The notes beneath the pieces are model-generated. The model searched no databases. It was not told where the DNA came from and saw only the letters and a list, made by a program, of their open reading frames with translations. A DNA stretch of 64,000 bases from positions 186,001-250,000 of the IMG/VR virus record IMGVR_UViG_3300042922_000643. One strand, given 5' to 3'. The DNA comes from a virus. Made by a program: the position numbers and the translations under genes. How positions within the stretch are numbered: the first letter of the stretch is position 1; every line of letters begins with the position of its first letter. This document shows, one piece after another, positions 29,043-63,750 of the stretch.

Positions 29043-29249
29043 ATGATTAACGGGTACGGTTTTCTTACAATCATTGTTGTGTGTATAACGATTATTGTGA
29101 TGTATGAACAATTACAAAGCCGTAAAAAGTGGGAAGCTTATTATAAGCGCCCTCTTCCTCCTGGCGTTAAGTGGCTTAGACCTAATGGTACTAGAGAATA
29201 CTCGACTCAAAACGAAGAGGCACGAATAAAGGAGGATGATGACGATTGA
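29043..29249 (+). CDS. single-pass membrane protein, 68 aa
   Basis: Start at ATG 29043 behind TAGGAGGAATC (TTG 29040 possible). One membrane segment (GFLTIIVVCITIIVMYEQLQ), then a basic and finally acidic tail (RIKEDDDD). Overlaps the next start. Confidence 0.66.
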   Translation: MINGYGFLTIIVVCITIIVMYEQLQSRKKWEAYYKRPLPPGVKWLRPNGTREYSTQNEEARIKEDDDD

Positions 29250-29662
29250 GTACAATTCATACCGCTGATGAGATTCAAGCATTATGCGATTATCTGCATG
29301 TAGGATTTGTGAACCATGATAATAAACAGGCTTTTTCCGATAGTGATAACATTATTATCGAAGATGAGACAGGAACTCCAGTCGCCGTCACCTTTCATGA
29401 ATTGGTAGAGGCCACAAAAGAGCCTATCGCTATTGATACAAAAGTCCGCCTGATCTTTAAAGACCATCAAGATGATAGTTGGCTTGTTGTACCTAGCGAT
29501 TTTGATAGTAGGGATACTCCCGAAGGATATCAAATTGCTCCAGGTTGGGGTATTGTTACAGGCTATGATCATGAAGACTCACGTTCGTATGGCGGTAAAA
29601 CCCCGATTGTCGTCGCTCGATTTATTTATGCAGGTTATGATCCTAAATATTGGAAAAGGTAA
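29246..29662 (+). CDS. stand-alone copy of the domain found in the 542-aa conjugation-module protein, 138 aa
   Basis: TTG start at 29246 behind AAAGGAGGATG. Its second half (VRLIFKDHQDDSWLVVPSDF, then PEGYQIAPGWGIVTGYDHED, SRSYGGKTPIVVARFIYAGY, DPKYWKR) aligns with residues about 263-342 of the protein at 45419 (VRLMNKVGEKDADWYAVPQF ... YLSFDMKYWEH). That ties this gene to the ubiquitin-like module. The fold looks beta-rich; no named family recognised. Confidence 0.75.
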   Translation: MSTIHTADEIQALCDYLHVGFVNHDNKQAFSDSDNIIIEDETGTPVAVTFHELVEATKEPIAIDTKVRLIFKDHQDDSWLVVPSDFDSRDTPEGYQIAPGWGIVTGYDHEDSRSYGGKTPIVVARFIYAGYDPKYWKR

Positions 29663-40187: not shown

Positions 40188-40964
40188 ATGACACAAGCAA
40201 TCAATGGGACTTTTGAGCTTGTGATGCTCGGAACAGGCTCCATGCAGGCAAATAACTATTTCAATAATAACGCTTTGTTGATGTCTACCGATTACACTCT
40301 AGCAATAGATTGTGGAACGACTTTTAAGCAAGCGTTATGCGAATTGGGTTTCAATTATGCAGATATCGATGGCATATTGATTACCCATATTCACTCTGAT
40401 CACGTCGGCGGCCTTGAAACACTCGCCTATGCAGGAAGATATGAACTCGAACGTAAGTTTGATTTAATCGGTGATTCTGAAATGATCAAAGAGCTCTGGG
40501 ATAGCACTCTTAAGGGTGGTCTTGAGCTCACCGCTGAAGGCAGAATGACGATCAACGATTATTTCAATGTTATTGAGCTTCCGAGAGATACTGAAAAGAT
40601 CATTGGCGGTTATGCTCTTGAGCTTTTAAAAACACCTCATGTTCCTCAAAAGGTGAACTATTCGGTATTCATCAATCGAAATATCTTCTATTCAGCAGAT
40701 GTCCGCTTCGATGAAAAGCTTGTTTATCACGCCTTGGAAGAAAGAAAATGTACATTAGCTTTCCATGATTGCAATTTTGGCGATCCGACAGTCGTTCATG
40801 CTTCTTTTCAAGACTTAGCAACATTGCCCCGTGAAGCCCAGCAAAGAATTTATTTGATGCATTACGGTGACAATGTTGAAGATTTCTACGGTCAAACGGG
40901 TGAAATGTCTATTCTTGAACAAGGTGTTTTTTATAACATCGTCAATGGTGTAATTACAAATTGA
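40188..40964 (+). CDS. metallo-beta-lactamase fold hydrolase, 258 aa
   Basis: ATG 40188 behind GGAGGTG. Signature THIHSDHVGG (H67, H69, D71, H72) with preceding LAIDCGTTF strand. HVPQKVNYSVFINRNIFYSA and LAFHDCNFG supply further metal-site positions. The SMQANNYFNNNALL opening is typical of the RNase Z / MBL-fold branch. Stand-alone MBL proteins have been reported beside some bacterial E1/E2/JAB operons, so this could belong to the module starting at 44474; RNA cleavage is the alternative. Confidence 0.88.
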   Translation: MTQAINGTFELVMLGTGSMQANNYFNNNALLMSTDYTLAIDCGTTFKQALCELGFNYADIDGILITHIHSDHVGGLETLAYAGRYELERKFDLIGDSEMIKELWDSTLKGGLELTAEGRMTINDYFNVIELPRDTEKIIGGYALELLKTPHVPQKVNYSVFINRNIFYSADVRFDEKLVYHALEERKCTLAFHDCNFGDPTVVHASFQDLATLPREAQQRIYLMHYGDNVEDFYGQTGEMSILEQGVFYNIVNGVITN

Positions 40965-42426: not shown

Positions 42427-44106
42427 ATGTCCTGGAAAAAAGTAAGTGACATCGTAAAAGACAGCCTGATTGATTTGAGGGGTGTCGAGTACAAGGTGAT
42501 CGAGAACAAACATTCCGATCTTCTTGTGGCTAAAGTCAGTAACCCTGCATTCGTACTCAGCTTAGAGACACTGATTGATATCGTTCAAAATGACGACTGG
42601 GAAGGATCGGCACATGAGATTTACGTGAAATCCGAACCCAAACCGCAGATTCCGCAATATACCGCGGCAAGAAAGCCAGGCGTTCAAGAGGACTTTGTTC
42701 ATTCAGAGATTCAATCTCGGTTTGCAGCCAAAGGCCCTTCGCTTGAAGATCAGCTGAAAGCTGCAACAGCAGGTACGACACCAGAACGCAAGGTATTTGC
42801 AACTGCCGTAGCAGGTCCAAGCCTTGAAGATCAACTCAGAGCAGCTAGAACCGAATCTGGAATCTCAGAAGTTCGTTCCCAGCTTGCTGGAGTTGGTGTC
42901 CAAGCAGCTTCGGCAGCACAGGGCGTTGCAAGGGTTGATCAGGCCGTTGAAAAGGTGGCTAAGCTCAATTCAGAACGTCACTACAACGTTCAAGGCCAGA
43001 TGTCTCGTGTAGAAGGCTCTGTTCGTAATGTCCAGAATCAGGCTACCGAGCTTAGCTGGCATGTGCAAAGCGTGCAGGACGATGTCGAAAACGTGGTGGA
43101 ACGCGTAAGTTCCTTAGAGCATCAGGCGCTCGAAGCCAGAATCAATCAAGACCTGAACACCCAAAAATCGGCGAAAGCCCAAGGAGGAAATTCTATGTCT
43201 ATCAAAAAATTGCTCGGTAACTTCACAGGTCTGTTCGGTAAGGTCGAAGGTCAGTTCGCTTATTCCCCAGCTGGTCTGGCAGTTCGTAAGAACCCTAACG
43301 AATACGGCTCCAACTGGATCGTATACGATGCTAAAACTCGCTCCCTGACTGACGTTCAAGACTTGGTTCTTGACTTCAATATCCCTGCATTCCAGCTGCC
43401 TGTCACTGAAGACGCCGTGAACGAAGGCGACATCATCCTGAACAACGGTAAATTCCAGTACGTTGTTGAGATCAATGATGGATACGTGAAAACGATCTCT
43501 CCTTCCGACAGCTCGTACAGCAGCGTTATCCCTACCCGTAACCAGTTCCTGAACAAAACGTTCTACACTACGGTGAAGACGCTTAGTCTGGCTGGCGAAG
43601 GTGGATTCGATCCGATGTTGCTGATGGCTATGAACAAAGGCGGCGACAAGCAAGATCTGCTTCCATTCCTGCTCATGAGCGGTGGACTGGGCGGTAATGG
43701 CGCAGCTGCAACTGGCGGCATTGATCCAATGATGCTGGCTCTGATCGGTGACAACACCGAAGACTTGCTTCCATTCCTGCTTCTGCAACAGGGCGGCGTG
43801 GCTGACAAAGGTATCAATCCTTTGATGCTGCTTCTGATGACTGACAAAGGCGGCGACTCGAAAGATAGCCTGCTTCCATTGCTCTTGATGGGTGGCGGTC
43901 TTGGTGGAGCTGGTGGCGCTCAAGCAGGTGGTATCCAGTCGATGCTTCCGTTCTTGCTCATGAGCGGTGATAAAGGCGGAGACAGCGGAATCAAAGACAT
44001 CTTGATGATGCAAGCACTGGGCGGTGGCGCTGGTTTCGGTAACCTCTTCGGTGGTACAGCACCAGCTGCAACTCCAGTAACTCCAGCGGCTCCAGCGGCT
44101 GAGTAA
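42427..44106 (+). CDS. modular coiled-coil protein with Leu/Met/Gly repeats, 559 aa
   Basis: ATG 42427. Residues 1-65 are a small SH3-like domain; 75-150 a linker with two SLEDQL motifs; 150-250 a coiled coil (VRNVQNQATELSWHVQSVQD). About 260-395 is a beta-rich domain, and 395-545 a repeat region. There, GGxDPMLL/INPLML segments alternate with DLLPFLLMSGG-type segments and glycine runs (at least four rounds). An in-frame SD and ATG (43195) would release the 303-aa C-terminal half alone. The repeats look like stacked hydrophobic helices with Gly linkers. Function unknown. Confidence 0.83.
   Translation: MSWKKVSDIVKDSLIDLRGVEYKVIENKHSDLLVAKVSNPAFVLSLETLIDIVQNDDWEGSAHEIYVKSEPKPQIPQYTAARKPGVQEDFVHSEIQSRFAAKGPSLEDQLKAATAGTTPERKVFATAVAGPSLEDQLRAARTESGISEVRSQLAGVGVQAASAAQGVARVDQAVEKVAKLNSERHYNVQGQMSRVEGSVRNVQNQATELSWHVQSVQDDVENVVERVSSLEHQALEARINQDLNTQKSAKAQGGNSMSIKKLLGNFTGLFGKVEGQFAYSPAGLAVRKNPNEYGSNWIVYDAKTRSLTDVQDLVLDFNIPAFQLPVTEDAVNEGDIILNNGKFQYVVEINDGYVKTISPSDSSYSSVIPTRNQFLNKTFYTTVKTLSLAGEGGFDPMLLMAMNKGGDKQDLLPFLLMSGGLGGNGAAATGGIDPMMLALIGDNTEDLLPFLLLQQGGVADKGINPLMLLLMTDKGGDSKDSLLPLLLMGGGLGGAGGAQAGGIQSMLPFLLMSGDKGGDSGIKDILMMQALGGGAGFGNLFGGTAPAATPVTPAAPAAE
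43181..43197 (+). promoter_or_regulatory. internal in-frame ribosome binding site and start
   Basis: AAGGAGGAAATTCT before in-frame ATG 43195. Codon bias becomes strongly optimal downstream, as in the 10087 case, supporting use of this start. Confidence 0.65.
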
Positions 44107-44312: not shown

Positions 44313-44356
44313 GGGGCTCCTTGAAGTGATAAAGACTTCGGGAGCTCTCCTTTCTT
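44313..44356 (+). terminator. Rho-independent terminator
   Basis: GGGGCTCCTTGAAGT pairs with ACTTCGGGAGCTCTCC, then TTTCTT. It separates the repeat-protein unit from the ubiquitin-like module. Confidence 0.82.
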
Positions 44357-44473: not shown

Positions 44474-44839
44474 ATGGCACGCACAGTACACTACGGAACT
44501 AACAAACCTTTCACTATCTTCGACGACAAACTTTCTATCGAAGACATCAAGAAGACTATGGCCGATTATTTCCCTGAAGTTGCAAACGCTACGGCACGCG
44601 TCGAAGGCGACAACATTTACCTGGAAGTGAAGGCTGGTACGAAAGGTTCGGGACCACGTACTGTTCATTACGGCACTAACAAGCCGTTCACAATCTTTGA
44701 CGAAAAGCTGTCGATTGAAGACATCAAGAAAACCATGGCTGACTACTTCCCTGAAGTAGCAAACGCCAGCGCTCGGGTTGAAGGTAACAACATCTACCTG
44801 GAAGTGAAAGCAGGCACTAAAGGCCTGATCTTGGCCTAA
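44474..44839 (+). CDS. tandem ubiquitin-like protein, PRTRC system protein C type, 121 aa
   Basis: ATG 44474. Two units of about 55 residues (4-58 and 63-117), each TVHYGTNKPFTIFD, SIEDIKKTMADYFPEVANA, NIYLEVKAGTKG. The layout FxYNG..L.DP..S...V...YA..YPEL..A...Y.F....GTKG is that of PRTRC protein C, a predicted beta-grasp ubiquitin-like protein. The units differ at only three residues although many synonymous sites differ. Unit 1 ends GTKG then a SGPR linker; unit 2 ends GTKG then LILA, so both need proteolytic exposure of glycine. Heads the E2/JAB/E1 genes. Confidence 0.85.
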   Translation: MARTVHYGTNKPFTIFDDKLSIEDIKKTMADYFPEVANATARVEGDNIYLEVKAGTKGSGPRTVHYGTNKPFTIFDEKLSIEDIKKTMADYFPEVANASARVEGNNIYLEVKAGTKGLILA

Positions 44840-44877
44840 TCTGCTTCTAGCAGAATTGGCTAGATTCTTGTAAACTA

Positions 44878-44916
44878 GGGCAGGAGGGGCTACCAAGCTC
44901 TTTCCTGCCTTTTTTT
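44878..44916 (+). terminator. Rho-independent terminator
   Basis: GGCAGGA...TTTCCTGCC stem followed by TTTTTTT. The ubiquitin-like gene thus has its own short transcript, with read-through to the enzymes. Confidence 0.88.
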
Positions 44917-55472: not shown

Positions 55473-55612
55473 AGTAAAGTCACAATAGGATTTATACGCT
55501 TCGATATAGTCAAGACCCGTAGTCTATTACTGGGTTGAAGCCACGTAACCTTCCATCGGAAACGTGGCTGTCTATAAATCTGCCGAAGATCCTATTGTGA
55601 CTTTACTTTATA
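55468..55612 (+). ncRNA. UUAUACG-CGAA hairpin RNA, copy 3
   Basis: A perfect 24-bp helix: 55468-55491 (TATAAAGTAAAGTCACAATA and on) with 55589-55612. It opens into TTATACG (55492-55498) and CCGAAG (55583-55588). Inner hairpins are ACCC...GGGT and GCCACG/CGTGGC. It ends 17 nt before the RNA-repair gene start, so it may control it or be processed by RNase III. Confidence 0.75.
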
Positions 55613-55629
55613 ATAAGGTGGGAACATTT

Positions 55630-57789
55630 ATGAGAACGTTAGTCCTTACTCGTGGTATAATGGCTTCTTCAAAATCAACATGGATTGCTGAAAATGGTCT
55701 TGCACCTTTTACTTTATCTAGTGATAACTTGCGTCTACTCCATTCTGCTCCACAGCTTCAAGAAGATGGCAAGCAGGTAATAGCGGGATCGCAAGAAGGT
55801 AAGATCTGGAAACTTTTATTTGAAGTTTTGGAGCGACGTATGCAAAACGGCGATTTTACCGTCATTGATGCAACACATATTACTTCGAGTTCCATTTCTG
55901 AGTATCGTGAACTGGCTAATAAATATCGTTATCGCGTGTTTGTAGTGGATTTTACTAATGTTCCTTTGGAAATAGCTTTAGAGCGGAATAAAAATCGTGA
56001 AGAATATAAGTATGTTCCAGAACATAAGATTGAAATAGCTTATGCTAAGCTTTCAGAAAATCATGTGCCTTCTTATGCGAAAGTTATTAAACCAGAAGAA
56101 TTCTGGGATCATGTTTCATATACAAAAATTGATTACAGCTCTTATCGCAAAATTCATCATATCGGGGATGTTCATGGATGCTACAGTGCATTAATGACTT
56201 ACCTTTCAGGCGAAATGAAGGAAGACGAGTTGTATATTTTTGTTGGTGATTATCTAGACCGCGGCATTCAGAACCGCGAAGTTTTAGAATTCCTCATTCA
56301 GATTAAAGACCTTCCAAATGTTATTCTTCTTGAAGGTAATCATGAAACTCATCTTCGCAAATGGTCAATGGATGAAACCGTTAAAAGTTTAGCATTCAAC
56401 CACTATACCGAAAAAGAGATTCATGATGTTAATAAGTCCGCTGTTCGTGAACTGTGCAGAAAGTTCAGACAGGTTTGTTATTATGAATATTACGGCAAAA
56501 CAGTGCTCGTCACTCATGGAGGCTTATCCTGCATTCCAAACGAACTTGCTTTGATCTCGACTTCTCAATTTATTAAAGGAGTAGGAAATTATGAAGTTGA
56601 TATTGATGCTATTTTCTCGGCTTCTGAACAAGATGGAACGTACCAGGTCCATGGTCATCGCAACATCTTCAGACTGCCTATGCAAGCCGCTGAGCGTTCT
56701 TTTAACCTGGAGGGTAGAGTTGAATCAGGAGGAGACTTAAGGGCTCTTACACTAACTCCTGAGGGGTTTCAAGAGCATTGTATCCAGAATCATGTTTTTA
56801 CAACAGAACATTCTCCAATGCCTCCCGTTGTAGGTTCCAAAACAACTACAGACAATTTCATTGAATACCTTCAGTCACACAAAATGGTTAAAGAAACACA
56901 GATAACTGATCATATTTCATCTTTTAACTTTACACGTAAAGCATTCAATAATGGCGTTTGGGATACGCTTAACATCAAGGCTCGCGGCCTTTTTGTGAAT
57001 AAGCATACTCGAAAGATCGTTAGCCGATCTTATGATAAGTTTTTTAATATTGACGAAGTTCCAGCTACAAAGATGGGAACATTAGCCAATACCCTGGAAT
57101 TTCCTGTGATTTTGTCAGAAAAACCGAATGGATACCTAGGTATTATCGGGTATGATGAGGAGACAGATGAACTGATCTACTCTTCCAAGTCTGAAACTCG
57201 TGGTACTTATGCGGTATCATTCAGAAAACTTTTCGAAGAAAAAGTTCCTGTTGAAATACGTGCTTGGCTTAAAGGATATCTTTACGGAAATGACGTGTCG
57301 ATAACTTTTGAGGTTATTCTTCCACAAGAAGATCCACACATCATAGAATATAAAGAGAATACTTTGATCTTACTCGATATTATCCAGCGAAATGTTCAGT
57401 TCCAAAAGAGATCTTATTCCGAGGTTGTTGAGCTCGCAATGAATCTTCTTCTTCCATATCGTAAAATCAAATATGTCTTCCATAACTGGTTAAGTTTCTA
57501 TCACTGGTATCAAAACGCATCTCAAGATTATTCTGTTAAAGAAGAAGGGTATGTCCTTGAAGATAATTCAGGTTTTATGACAAAGATAAAATTACCGTAC
57601 TATCTTTTCTGGAAGCAAATGCGTACAGCAAAATTCCAGGTGAAGATGGAGGGCTATATGCTTCCTCAGTGGTTGCCGCCAATTCCTGACGATCTTAAAA
57701 ATTTCGTTGGGTGGGCTAAACAGCAAGATCAGGAGTATTTGAAACGCGTGGATGTTATCCAGTTGCGTACAGATTACGAGGGCTCTTAA
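55630..57789 (+). CDS. trifunctional RNA repair enzyme: 5' kinase, phosphatase and RNA ligase, 719 aa
   Basis: Start at ATG 55630 (AATAAGGTGGG upstream); a longer frame runs through the RNA hairpin. Residues 1-165 are a P-loop polynucleotide kinase, with an unusual loop RGIMASSKSTW in place of G-x-x-G-x-G-K-S/T. Residues 175-390 are a calcineurin-type phosphatase: HHIGDVHGCY, FVGDYLDRG, LLEGNHETH, VTHGGLSC, VHGHRN. Residues 440-719 are an ATP-dependent RNA ligase: FNxxARGLF-like start (IKARGLFVNKHTRKIV), KFFN, nucleotidyl Lys498 in VILSEKPNGYLG. The order matches bacterial Pnkp, the ligase part is T4 Rnl1/tRNA-ligase-like. Heals and seals broken RNA, e.g. tRNAs cut by host anticodon nucleases. 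Confidence 0.9.
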   Translation: MRTLVLTRGIMASSKSTWIAENGLAPFTLSSDNLRLLHSAPQLQEDGKQVIAGSQEGKIWKLLFEVLERRMQNGDFTVIDATHITSSSISEYRELANKYRYRVFVVDFTNVPLEIALERNKNREEYKYVPEHKIEIAYAKLSENHVPSYAKVIKPEEFWDHVSYTKIDYSSYRKIHHIGDVHGCYSALMTYLSGEMKEDELYIFVGDYLDRGIQNREVLEFLIQIKDLPNVILLEGNHETHLRKWSMDETVKSLAFNHYTEKEIHDVNKSAVRELCRKFRQVCYYEYYGKTVLVTHGGLSCIPNELALISTSQFIKGVGNYEVDIDAIFSASEQDGTYQVHGHRNIFRLPMQAAERSFNLEGRVESGGDLRALTLTPEGFQEHCIQNHVFTTEHSPMPPVVGSKTTTDNFIEYLQSHKMVKETQITDHISSFNFTRKAFNNGVWDTLNIKARGLFVNKHTRKIVSRSYDKFFNIDEVPATKMGTLANTLEFPVILSEKPNGYLGIIGYDEETDELIYSSKSETRGTYAVSFRKLFEEKVPVEIRAWLKGYLYGNDVSITFEVILPQEDPHIIEYKENTLILLDIIQRNVQFQKRSYSEVVELAMNLLLPYRKIKYVFHNWLSFYHWYQNASQDYSVKEEGYVLEDNSGFMTKIKLPYYLFWKQMRTAKFQVKMEGYMLPQWLPPIPDDLKNFVGWAKQQDQEYLKRVDVIQLRTDYEGS

Positions 57790-59717: not shown

Positions 59718-59770
59718 CAAAATAATATGATATCATGAGCTTATCTAGGGAAAAGGAAGTGATAGTTTAC

Positions 59771-62348
59771 GTGACCTCGACGCAAGATTTATCTTTAGCC
59801 GCTGCGAAAGAAGAGCGGGGAGTCAGTTCACAACGCTTTACGCATCTTCATCTGCACACACCAGGTAGTTTGCTAGATGGATTTTGTCGTATAGCTGATC
59901 TAGTAAAACTCGCTAAAGAATTTGGTATGGACGCCGTGGGTATTAGTGACCATGGAAATTGCCATTCTCATGTCGAGTTTTTTCAAGCTTGTAAAGAAGC
60001 AGGAATTAAACCAATTATGGGTATGGAAGGTTATATTACGCCTCACCGTAGTTGGAAAAAACCTGAGTTTACAGCCAAGCATTACAAAAAGCTTTCCTAT
60101 CGTTATCGCACTAAAGCAGAGATGCAAGAAGACGGCGCGGAACAAATCGTTATGGATGGCAAGAATCTCGTTCCTAATGAGATCATTGATGCCTATCTCC
60201 GTAGTGAATTGGCAAGCCTAAACCGTTTGATTAAAGATGAGAGAGAAAACGGTAATGATCCAGAGCTGTTGAAGGATTTGTACGCGGCCAAGGATGATAC
60301 TCGTATCTCAATCAATGCTTTGATCAGCTCAGGAGATCTTATTTATTCAGCGGTTCCTTCTCTAGCGACAGCAAATCTTTTTGAAATGCGGCCGAAGACG
60401 GCACATCTTTTAATGATTGCACGAACGAACGAAGGATATCAGAATCTGCTTAAAATCACCAGTATTGCTCAGCTTGAGGGTGTTTATTACAAACCACGTG
60501 CTGATTATAAGTTAATTAAACAGTATGGGAAAGGCATCATTGCTACTAGTGCGTGTCTTGGCGGAGAAATCCCTCAGCTTATTCGTAAAGGGAAAGAAAG
60601 ACTCGCTAAGAACATTGCACGGTTTTACCAAAGCTGCTTCGATGAGTTTTACTTTGAGCTACAACCAAGCCATTTGGAAGAGCAACACTATGTAAATGAA
60701 GTCCTGATCCGCTGGAGCGAAGAAATGGATATTCCGCTCGTTGCGACTTCAGATGCTCATATGCTGCGTCCAGAAGACCTGCCTATTCACTCCGCATTAA
60801 CCAAGATTGGTAAAGCCCAAGATGATGCGGATATCAACGTTTATGAAAGCTGTTACTTCAAAAGCGCAGATGAAATGCTAGAAGGCGGAATGCCTGTAAT
60901 TGCACTAGAGAATGCGTATCTCATTTCTCAGAAGTGTAATGTTGAGCTTCCCCTCGGTAGAATTCACCTGCCTAGATTCACAGTTCCACCCGAGTATACA
61001 TCAGACACCTACCTTTTAGAGCTTACAGACAATGCTTTGTTCCAGATGGCGCTCGAAAAGGATATTGATATCACCGTATATAAAGATCGTTTGAAGGAAG
61101 AACTTCTCGTTATCTTCGAGAAAGGATTTTCTGATTACTTTCTTATCGTTTGGGACTATATTGCTTTTGCGCGGCGTCAAGGCATTCTAGTAGGACCAGG
61201 CCGCGGTAGTGCAGGAGGTTCTCTTGTTGCCTATCTGCTGAAAATCACCAATATTGACCCTATCAAGTATGATCTTCTCTTCGAACGGTTCCTTGACCCT
61301 TCGCGTATGGACTTGCCCGATATTGACAGTGACTTTGATTATGTACGAAGACACGAGGTTGTTGAATATATCGCTGGAAAATATGGTCAAGATCATGTAG
61401 CTCAAGTTATTACATTCGGGTCTCTATCTTCAAAAGCGGCATTCAAAGACGTGGGCCGTATTTTAGGTATTGACCATAATATTATTAACACAATGAATAA
61501 ACTAATTCCTGTTGTCTTTGGAAAGCCTTATGGCATTGACAAGGCCTTAGAAGAAGTCGAAGAATTAAGGGAGTATGAAAGACGCTATCCTGAAATGTTC
61601 GATCTTGCTCGAAAAGTTCATTCCCTGCCTCGGTCTACAGGTATTCATGCTTGTGCTCTTGTTATTACACCAGAGCCTATTGAGGAAATGGTACCCTTGA
61701 TCAAGGGAAAAGCAGGAGAAATCGTTACCCAGTACGACGGCCCTACATTAGCGGAACAGTACGGTATCCTCAAGGTTGACTTGTTGGGACTGAAAAACCT
61801 ATCTGTCATTGATATCGCCCGTAAGCTTGTCCTAGAGCGATATGACCGCGATATCGATCCTGATACATTAGAGTTTGATGATCCGCGCGTATTCAAGACT
61901 ATTCAACAGGGGCACACGGCGGGGCTCTTCCAAATTGAGAGCAGCGGGATGACCAAAATGTTTCAAAGTCTAAACCGCGTTACATTCGATGACCTTGTAG
62001 CAGGAATAGCTTTATACCGTCCAGGCCCAATGCAGCATATTCCCGACTACTGTGCTCGTGCAAATGGATACACAGAGGTAACTTATCCATGTGAAGAACT
62101 GCGTCCTGTGCTAGAAAAAACGCATGGTATTGCCGTCTATCAAGAATCTATCATGGCAATGTCCAGAGTTATGGCGGGATACACAAAAGCTGAGACTACT
62201 AAGCTGCGTAAAGCGATTTCCAAGAAAAAAGAAGAGGTTATGCGTCCAGCCTTGGATGAGCTTTTCAAACGAGTCACGATGAATGGCCACTCGGAAGAAT
62301 TGGCAAAGAAAATCATCGACATCATCGAGCCTTTCGTAGGCTATGCGT
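59771..62348 (+). CDS. dnaE: DNA polymerase III alpha subunit (DnaE-type), exon 1
   Basis: Start placed at GTG 59771, 7-10 nt after AAGGAAGTGAT, a near-perfect SD; ATG 59735 is in frame but has no SD. PHP domain at the N-terminus (FTHLHLHTPGSLLDGF, GISDHGNCHSHVEF, MGMEGYI). The polymerase domain has GPGRGSAGGSLVAYLL and the catalytic PDIDSDF near residue 517, plus KVDLLGLKNLSVID. The exon ends at T62348 in the codon for F of the universally conserved GY-x-FNKSHS motif. Joined to exon 2 it encodes a full-length replicase of about 1169 aa. Confidence 0.93.
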
Positions 62349-62818
62349 TAATAGATGAACGGAAGTGTTCATGAGCGCCCTTGGCGAGCAATCGCCATTG
62401 AATAACTAGGTGAATTTAGGGGAGTCCTGGAGCAACAGTCGTGAGACAGATGTATGGTGACCCTAAGCGAAGTTTTGTGTAGATGGTGGCGGAATAGGTA
62501 GACGATAGGTCGGCTTAGTAGGTTTGGGTTGTGGTTCGAATCCACGATGCGCAATACGCGTAGACGCCGTGACGGTAAAAACCTGGCTATGTGAGGTGCA
62601 AATCCTCACCCACTATACAAAAAACGTTCAACGACTATTCTTGAAATGGCCATGAGAATTGGCAACAGAAGTAGGGCCTATGCTTATAAAGATAGGCGGG
62701 TGAGAGTCCCTTAATCCGAAGCGCCTAGCATCCTCAGAACTTTGGGGATGGTGATATAGTCTACTCCCTCTCTGCTCGACAGAGAATTCAAAATATGGGG
62801 AAACCCAGGGTGAGATGG
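62349..62818 (+). ncRNA. group I intron in dnaE, 470 nt
   Basis: Interrupts the frame exactly between GYA and FNKSHS; removing 62349-62818 restores TTT-AAC-AAA. The 5' exon ends in T and the intron ends in G, as required. P1: GCGT (62345-62348) with GCGC (62375-62378), giving the U-G splice pair. Conserved R element GTTCAACGACTA (62626-62637) and S element GATATAGTC (62753-62761) form P7 (GACTA/TAGTC). No homing endonuclease ORF, so probably immobile or mobilised in trans. Splicing regulates replicase synthesis. Confidence 0.9.
62477..62620 (+). other. tRNA-Leu-like insertion in the intron P6 region
   Basis: GTGTAG...CTATAC closes a 140-nt extension. Inside are TGGCGGAATAGGTAGACG (typical leucine tRNA D arm), a T arm TTGTGG-TTCGAAT-CCACGA and a second T-arm-like GTGAGG-TGCAAAT-CCTCAC. 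GTAGACG occurs twice as a direct repeat. Could be a decayed tRNA captured by the intron. Confidence 0.4.
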
Positions 62819-63750
62819 TTAACAAATCCCACAGTGTAGCATATGCTATCGTCTGCTACATGACCGCTTACTTTAAAACATATTACCCTTTGGAGTTTAT
62901 GGCGGCGTTGTTAACAGTATTTGGTAGTAATGTTAAGAAAGCAGTCCCTTATATCGCTGAATGCAAACGTATGGGATTCGAAGTATTGCCACCCGATGTA
63001 AACAAATCGGGATACGGTTTCGTAATCGAAGGCACAAATCTTCGTTTTGGCTTGAACAGCTTAAAAGGTCTTGGTGAAGTTGCGCTTGAACGCATTATAG
63101 AAGAGCGTCCTTTTGTAGATCTGGAAGATGCGATCAAACGAGTTCCGAAGAAGTTCTTGAACAAACGCGTCGTCGATGTGCTTAGCCTTTGCGGAGCCTT
63201 TGATGATCTTGCGAATGAAAAGAATCGGATGAAAATCGTTGAGAAAGCATATAAACTTCGTGGAGAGAAGAAATTTGATCTCACAAGTTTTATTGAAAAC
63301 TTCGATCAAAAGGCTAAGCTTGATCATGAGAAAGCTATTCTAGGCGTCTACGTCAGTGGTCACCCACTAGATGGCTACGCTACCGCTGTCGGGCCTTGGC
63401 TTGAAAAGTCTGAAGGGGATCGATTCGATACCGCGGGAATTATTGCCGAATTCAACGTGATTAAAACCAAGAAAGGTGATGAAATGGCCTTTGTAGATTT
63501 GGATACTATCGAAGGTCTGCAAACTATTGTCATCTTCCCTCAGCAGTATTCGTCCATTCGTGGCCAGCTTGTTGAGGAACTGATCATGAAGATTACGGTT
63601 CAAGTCGAATACAATGCTGTGCGCGGCGAACGTAATTACATCGCCAAGAAGATCACGATTCCGAAGAAGATCAATAAGGGACTTTATATCCCGAAAGCTG
63701 CTTTGGAAGAAGAAGACACTACCAGTGAATATGAACAATGGGCACAATAG
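62819..63750 (+). CDS. dnaE: DNA polymerase III alpha subunit (DnaE-type), exon 2
   Basis: Continues from the spliced F codon: NKSHSVAYAIVCYMTAYF and YYPLEFMAALLT, then the tandem helix-hairpin-helix region (LRFGLNSLKGLGEVALERII) and a C-terminal OB-fold region (IIAEFNVIKTKKGDEMAFVD). A false start (ATG 62815) exists inside the intron, but without splicing it would lack the polymerase active site. Ends in an acidic EEEDTTSEYEQWAQ. Confidence 0.92.

Follow-up and report, generated by a model that had tools for sequence, protein, structure and literature searches.

A virus-borne gene for a two-unit ubiquitin-like protein, in all likelihood a polyubiquitin-style precursor within a PRTRC-like conjugation module

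Architecture of the locus

The window analyzed here, 64,000 nucleotides (nt) long, comprises positions 186001-250000 of the 251,543-base virus record IMGVR_UViG_3300042922_000643. It carries a gene for a ubiquitin-like protein (Ubl) in which two nearly identical units lie head to tail, and downstream of it are genes for an E2-like protein, a JAB/JAMM metallopeptidase and an E1-like adenylyltransferase (Table 1). The open reading frame (ORF) of the Ubl starts with ATG, has an AGGAG nine bases upstream, and encodes the layout MARTVHYG...KAGTKG-SGP-RTVHYG...KAGTKG-LILA. A preliminary description of this DNA had placed SGP after unit 1 and LILA after unit 2 and had called the units nearly alike in protein; both statements agree with our reading, in which 3 of 56 residues differ between R3-G58 and R62-G117 (D/E, T/S, and D/N). 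No further Ubl copies were found beyond these two units in the 251.5-kb record.

Table 1. Features of the Ubl locus, in coordinates of the window
Feature	Position	Strand	Remarks
Weak hairpin upstream of the Ubl gene, possibly the terminator of the preceding gene	44313..44348	+	z -2.42
Two-unit Ubl precursor gene, PRTRC protein C / Prok_Ub relative	44474..44839	+	121 amino acids (aa)
Unit 1, R3-G58, ending KAGTKG	44480..44647	+	
Spacer SGP separating the units; cut predicted on its N-terminal side, following GTKG	44648..44656	+	Junction census; cleavage inferred
Unit 2, R62-G117, ending KAGTKG	44657..44824	+	
C-terminal tail LILA past unit 2; removal needed to expose KG	44825..44836	+	Sequence
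Intrinsic terminator after the Ubl gene, ahead of the enzyme genes	44877..44916	+	-25.5 kcal/mol, z -4.47
147-aa protein, function unknown, homologue only in L007-L010	44961..45404	+	Family hidden Markov model comparison
542-aa protein, PRTRC protein F position	45419..47047	+	No family match of note
E2-like protein, Prok-E2_D / PRTRC B lineage, conserved C160 (nt 47537-47539)	47060..47839	+	
142-aa ORF inserted between E2-like and JAB genes, without relative among the compared loci	47985..48413	+	
JAB/JAMM metallopeptidase, PRTRC_A relative; E139, HSH 208-210, S218, D221	48413..49789	+	
E1-like ThiF adenylyltransferase, PRTRC_ThiF relative; GxGG, R74, K86, D133, conserved C211	49836..50798	+	

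Unit arrays in related genes

A search of 50,697 phage records with the window Ubl returned one match, gp199 of Bacillus phage vB_BauM_KLEB27-3 (9e-27), which consists of four units. Alignments of E1 and JAB, together with a genome scan, led to 19 contigs, 16 of them viral and 3 from bacteria or archaea, the genome scan giving three; scans of viral contigs with the Ubl alone, E1 alone, or the unit alignment found no relatives, and tblastn against plasmids with the unit of locus L024 found no match. A hidden Markov model (HMM) of the unit detected six units in L007 to L010, four in L020, two in L011, and single units elsewhere. Two units each were present in L015 and L016, three with long spacers in Vibrio phage D69, two in the Cytobacillus plasmid pN497-ZHONG (L026), and four in the Bacillus velezensis plasmid pAD3 (L038). 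The latter plasmid (220 kb; L038 and L039) bears annotated phage genes (holin and KilAC antirepressor) in part of its sequence and thus is probably a phage-plasmid.

This census of tandem genes is biased, as the loci were drawn by queries resembling the window's enzymes. Among the 19 contig loci there were 8 multi-unit contigs; the Ubl was recognized in 14 loci and not in L012, L018, L021, L022, and L025. L008, L009, and L010 have identical DNA over the compared stretch, and the Ubl protein of L007 is the same as theirs. In the 11 plasmid regions around a match, the Ubl was not recognized in L027, L029, L030, and L031. The Ubl ORF of Salmonella phage Arash (L003:107-307) overlaps the annotated gp251 in another frame, and the annotated frame may be wrong.

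Units resembled their neighbors in the same gene far more than units of other genes, with a mean within-gene identity of 94 to 96% in the window, KLEB27-3, L008, and L011 versus 47 to 55% between those genes. A tree of the 55-residue unit sequences, from which L005 and L038 were left out, grouped the units by gene, with support of 0.993 for the window, 0.988 for KLEB27-3, 0.979 for L011, and 0.929 for L008. Arrays thus appear to have grown independently of one another in several lineages.

Mature C terminus and predicted cleavage

The ten distinct multi-unit genes contain 31 units, every one of which ends in G(T/V)KG by pattern count. The HMM independently recovered 20 of them, from six genes, with domain E values below 1e-20 and with matches that reached the last position of the model. 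The residues that follow the KG of a unit vary (SGP, MA, A, SGSGQ, M, nothing, ATN, AGE, or AD), and in 8 of the 10 genes the last unit is followed by a tail, 1 to 14 residues long. Single-unit relatives found by the HMM stopped exactly at KG in 6 of 8 cases, namely, all four annotated plasmid PRTRC C proteins (GTKG, GTKG, GAKG, and KTKG) plus L023 and L024, and the Arash Ubl, found by tblastn, likewise ends at GTKG. The single units of L034, L014, L017, and L019 had been chosen by a GxKG-near-end pattern and were left out of the evidence on the end. Since single-unit relatives stop at KG, this dipeptide is very probably the mature C terminus, and the multi-unit genes would have to be cut there. 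Cleavage after GTKG, put forward in the preliminary description by analogy with polyubiquitin precursors, is thus strongly supported by comparison, and the JAB protein is the obvious predicted cutter.

A different view is that the protein acts without being cut between its units, either as a modifier with two domains, as ISG15 and BilA are, or as a linear chain attached to targets in one piece, with JAB trimming only the tail. BilA, as described in a 2024 review, has two Ubl domains and an end trimmed by a JAB peptidase (PMC11354881). Within our own set, L015 and L016 have no tail after the last unit and end at GTKG, so that the whole dimer could be activated, and L005 has long spacers between its units. 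Further points that do not fit cleavage at a universal KG end come from two single-unit genes, L006 (ME3), which ends GNKAA, and L013:7486-7908, in which GTKG is followed by a 75-residue extension. Against uncleaved action stand the near identity of the two window units, the C-terminal GTKG that each keeps, a copy number that runs 2, 3, 4, and 6, the same KG end in singles, and the free variation of residues right after internal KG. We consider it unlikely. The layout of L013 resembles that of ubiquitin fused to a carboxyl-extension protein.

Constraint on the protein and divergence of the codons

The two window units differ at 34 of 168 nt, including 20 of 25 four-fold sites. The proportion of synonymous differences (pS) was 0.82, which is saturated, while the proportion of nonsynonymous differences (pN) was 0.027, and the binomial probability of so few nonsynonymous among 34 changes under neutral expectation was approximately 4e-16. 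The same codon was used at 22 of 52 shared degenerate positions, in line with the 21.0 (standard deviation, 3.4) expected if codons were drawn independently at the frequencies seen in 19 window ORFs; thus, the synonymous signal between the units has been fully erased while the protein was held. These values bear out the earlier claims of strong purifying selection and of many synonymous differences. Other arrays behaved similarly: units 2 and 3 of KLEB27-3 are identical in protein yet differ at 32 of 165 nt, and the same holds for units 5 and 6 of L008, at 41 of 165 nt.

The age of the duplication, which had been described as old, is a more qualified matter. Synonymous saturation agrees with an old event, but because the units cluster by gene in the tree, the duplication in the window lineage postdates the split from the sampled relatives. 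Additionally, the scrambled codons could reflect either a long time under very strong constraint or selection that disfavors recombination among the repeats, and if the latter was acting, the duplication would be younger than it appears.

Fold and family of the unit

The structural model of unit 1 (M1-G58; predicted local distance difference test score [pLDDT], 80.7; predicted template modeling score, 0.62) has a beta-beta-alpha-beta-beta order with the last residues disordered. In a Foldseek search with this model, ubiquitin ranked first (probability, 0.99; E value, 0.048), and nearly all of the 50 matches listed carry titles naming ubiquitin or a Ubl. On the basis of this model, the unit probably adopts a ubiquitin-like beta-grasp fold. 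At the family level, gp199 of KLEB27-3 scored 61 bits against PRTRC_C (cut-off, 45.95) and 93.9 against Prok_Ub (cut-off, 25), and the Ubl of L008 also was above both cut-offs, all of these scores being summed over repeats. Matches of the Ubl to PF06898 (YqfD) and TIGR02876 were rejected, as they were below cut-off and had no sporulation context, and the many odd family matches of repeat proteins were taken as repeat-inflated noise. A sequence search of solved structures gave nothing credible for the Ubl, the E2-like protein, or JAB.

Enzyme genes accompanying the Ubl

The order Ubl-E2-JAB-E1 was found in 16 of 18 tabulated loci, and the predicted active sites were almost invariant. In distinct sequences, the conserved cysteine was present in 31 of 31 E2-like proteins and, as C211 of the window protein, in 32 of 33 E1 proteins; the JAMM E, HxH, S, and D residues, complete in the window JAB, were kept in 25 of 26 JAB sequences, with L006 as the exception. 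Identical duplicates and L001 had been removed before these counts, and L006:7235-7885 was removed from the JAB alignment. In KLEB27-3, whose host is Bacillus australimaris, gp195 is the JAB protein and gp194 the E1. The window E1 scored 48.0 against Pfam ThiF (cut-off, 28.1) and matched two groups of THIF-type entries among solved structures at 0.004. Relatives of the E2-like protein scored 48.3 (L011), 38.1 (L026), and 18.4 bits (KLEB27-3) against TIGR03737, whose cut-off is 131.45; the KLEB27-3 relative matched PF14460, and an HMM iterated from the window protein reached the annotated PRTRC B of L032, L033, and L035.

The match of the E1 to the ThiF/MoeB family, and the ancestral use of the Ubl fold in ThiS/MoaD (PMC1779556), would also suit a sulfur carrier, in which the units are thiocarboxylated by the E1 for a biosynthetic or RNA modification step instead of being conjugated to proteins. 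We regard this as very improbable, because an E2-like gene with an invariant cysteine and a JAB gene accompany the Ubl, the E1 cysteine is conserved, and thiamine and molybdenum cofactor operons are described by Iyer et al. as lacking JAB (PMC1779556).

Several other genes were noted in the surroundings. The family of the 542-aa protein is common to KLEB27-3, L007-L011, L020, and L026, and a 138-aa ORF at 29246-29662 (+), 15 kb upstream, matches its HMM (4.6e-40) as a partial paralogue. A 559-aa protein with low-complexity LLPFLLM/GG repeats is encoded at 42427-44106 (+), and a homologue also immediately precedes the array in L008-L010. Farther downstream are an RNA ligase/kinase/phosphatase fusion (55564-57789, +) and DNA polymerase III alpha in two ORFs (59735-62374 and 62815-63750, +), possibly split by an insertion. 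A gene of the Apyc1 anti-Pycsar phosphodiesterase family (PF23023; 1.6e-62; 211.6 bits; cut-off, 50) lies at 40188-40964 (+), approximately 3.5 kb ahead of the Ubl gene.

This anti-defence gene bears on one more explanation, in which the repeats, unprocessed, serve mainly for DNA or protein dosage, as a decoy titrating a host defence based on Ubl conjugation. Bacterial Ubl conjugation can reportedly block phages, as Hor et al. are said to have found in 2024. However, a decoy would not need the phage's own E1, E2-like, and JAB genes with their active-site residues kept, and PRTRC-type plasmids carry the same gene set; of the explanations considered, this one appears the least probable.

Expression signals

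The preliminary description credited the Ubl gene with its own leader and terminator. The terminator stands, none of 200 shuffles being as good, while the leader is weaker: the upstream hairpin is modest, and a promoter scan found 1 site versus 1.0 expected by chance, which leaves an own promoter unsupported. Among the six loci scanned, plus-strand terminator-like sites follow the Ubl in the window, L020, and L026, and none was seen in L002, L008, and L011. Copy number is a better argument for a surplus of monomer over the enzymes than are the expression signals.

Proposed function

We propose that the window gene encodes a phage-borne precursor of the polyubiquitin kind, which would be cut after GTKG by JAB and then conjugated via E1 and E2, and we assign this reading a probability of roughly 75%. 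Translation would yield two near-identical Ubl units and a short tail, and the JAB metallopeptidase encoded downstream would cut after each GTKG, freeing two monomers ending in KAGTKG. The ThiF-like E1 would adenylate the terminal glycine, take the Ubl on its conserved cysteine, and hand it to the E2-like protein, after which the Ubl would be attached to amino groups on proteins of the host or the phage; JAB may also be able to take it off again. The activation, conjugation, and deconjugation steps are deduced from the conservation of the gene set and of the active sites. Several units per translation would give more monomer relative to the enzymes, an effect to which a terminator after the Ubl gene would add. 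A need for both units to fit one set of E1, E2, and JAB would keep them alike, their codons having meanwhile drifted or been driven fully apart. Overall, as judged from sequence comparison, the conserved phage Ubl precursor in all likelihood functions as polyubiquitin does, within a conjugation module of the PRTRC-like kind.

Besides the exceptional C termini given above, several results count against this proposal. The window Ubl lacks a terminal Gly-Gly, its units ending in Lys-Gly; for this reason we call it polyubiquitin-like in working, yet not ubiquitin. In the structure comparisons, none of the Foldseek matches listed for the Ubl reached an E value of 0.001 or less, and VIA-align gave a modest Z of 5.8 against 1ubq (root mean square deviation of 2.5 over 57 residues), with protein G domains tying. 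The E2-like model (pLDDT, 86.9) had a best Z of 3.9 and no E2 among the matches listed, although the protein may still have a UBC fold. Family models were similarly reserved. The window Ubl did not match TIGR03738 (PRTRC_C), a miss that says little since that model was silent in all 14 control genomes searched, and it scored 18.1 against PF14454 (Prok_Ub), below the cut-off of 25. The E1 and JAB fell under the cut-offs of PRTRC_ThiF (TIGR03736; 1.8e-31; 109.3 bits versus 144.75) and PRTRC_A (TIGR03735; 5e-7; 29.5 bits versus 101.8), and the window E2-like protein matched no NCBIfam or Pfam family, including TIGR03737 and PF14460. Finally, within-gene unit identity was lower in L020 (71%) and L026 (78%), JAB was not found in L028 and L032 among the tabulated loci, and only 3 of the 6 scanned loci have a terminator between the Ubl and the enzymes.

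Polyubiquitin precursors usually are regarded as eukaryotic. A broader idea, for which we see the chances as evenly balanced, is that true polyubiquitin genes, with 2 to 6 mostly near-identical units, arose several times independently in phages and phage-like plasmids, convergently with eukaryotes, that they feed a self-contained E1-E2-deubiquitinase pathway during infection, and that the enzymes may enter the cell with the virion. A hint of virion presence comes from the reported proteome of Arash, in which Gp246 (E1), Gp247 (JAB), and Gp248 (E2-like) were listed with 5, 3, and 2 unique peptides and with coverages of 100, 77, and 61%, a misfit with so few peptides; its authors allow for co-purification of abundant enzymes (PMC10585845). 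What sets these loci apart is the presence of near-identical phage arrays next to a compact group of genes for E1, E2-like, and JAMM proteins, with a unit number that shifts between relatives. KLEB27-3, with its four units, offers a small cultivable system for asking why Ubls are made as concatemers, how protein constancy survives codon scrambling, and what advantage protein tagging inside a bacterium gives a virus, and through it the little-studied PRTRC modules become testable.

Comparison with known systems

In PADLOC, no Ubl, E2, or JAB model was matched, and the E1 weakly matched E1-E2 models. The main text of a 2021 survey of jumbo phages has the word "ubiquitin" twice and does not name JAB, ThiF, Ub-like, or E2-like proteins (PMC7824862). 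Near-identical polyubiquitin-like arrays of phages with intact separate enzymes were not found in searches of the open-licence PubMed Central literature, which is weak evidence of absence.

Among the closest known systems is PRTRC (TIGR03735-38 and 03742), whose C-family Ubl ending in KG, E2-like B, JAB A, and ThiF E1 have apparent counterparts in the window. The order C-F-B-A-ThiF in the window is that of Cupriavidus L033, whose annotation shows the order canonical for plasmids (ParB, E, C, F, B, A, ThiF). Unlike PRTRC, the window has two Ubl units in one gene, is carried by a virus, and holds a different, unrelated-looking family in the F position; because its proteins are below the family cut-offs, we do not class it as a strict PRTRC member. 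Iyer et al. predicted in 2006 the type 6d operons, with Ub-like, JAB, E1-like, E2-like, and alpha-helical proteins (PMC1779556). The window module matches this type in make-up, and we infer that type 6d is PRTRC.

Tandem Ubl domains also are a feature of the type 6e polyUbl operons of the same authors, which have two to three domains, an inactive E2-like protein, and JAB-E1 fusions (PMC1779556) and which were likened to polyubiquitin already in 2006 and again in the 2024 review (PMC11354881). In contrast to type 6e, the window JAB and E1 are separate ORFs, the E2-like cysteine is kept, and the units are near identical, reaching six in relatives. BilABCD, described in the same review, resembles the window module in that Ubl, E1, E2, and JAB peptidase lie in one operon and that BilA likewise has two Ubl domains (PMC11354881), whereas the window units differ from BilA in being near identical and in both retaining the conjugation end.

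The gene itself resembles eukaryotic polyubiquitin, whose repeats are cleaved after Gly-Gly (PMC11354881). It shares with UBB, UBC, and UBI4 the head-to-tail near-identical units, a copy number that varies among relatives, extra residues past the last unit in most genes, and synonymous divergence with a constant protein. The window gene departs from them in its 56-residue unit, Lys-Gly end, short spacers, predicted JAMM processing, and apparently independent origin.
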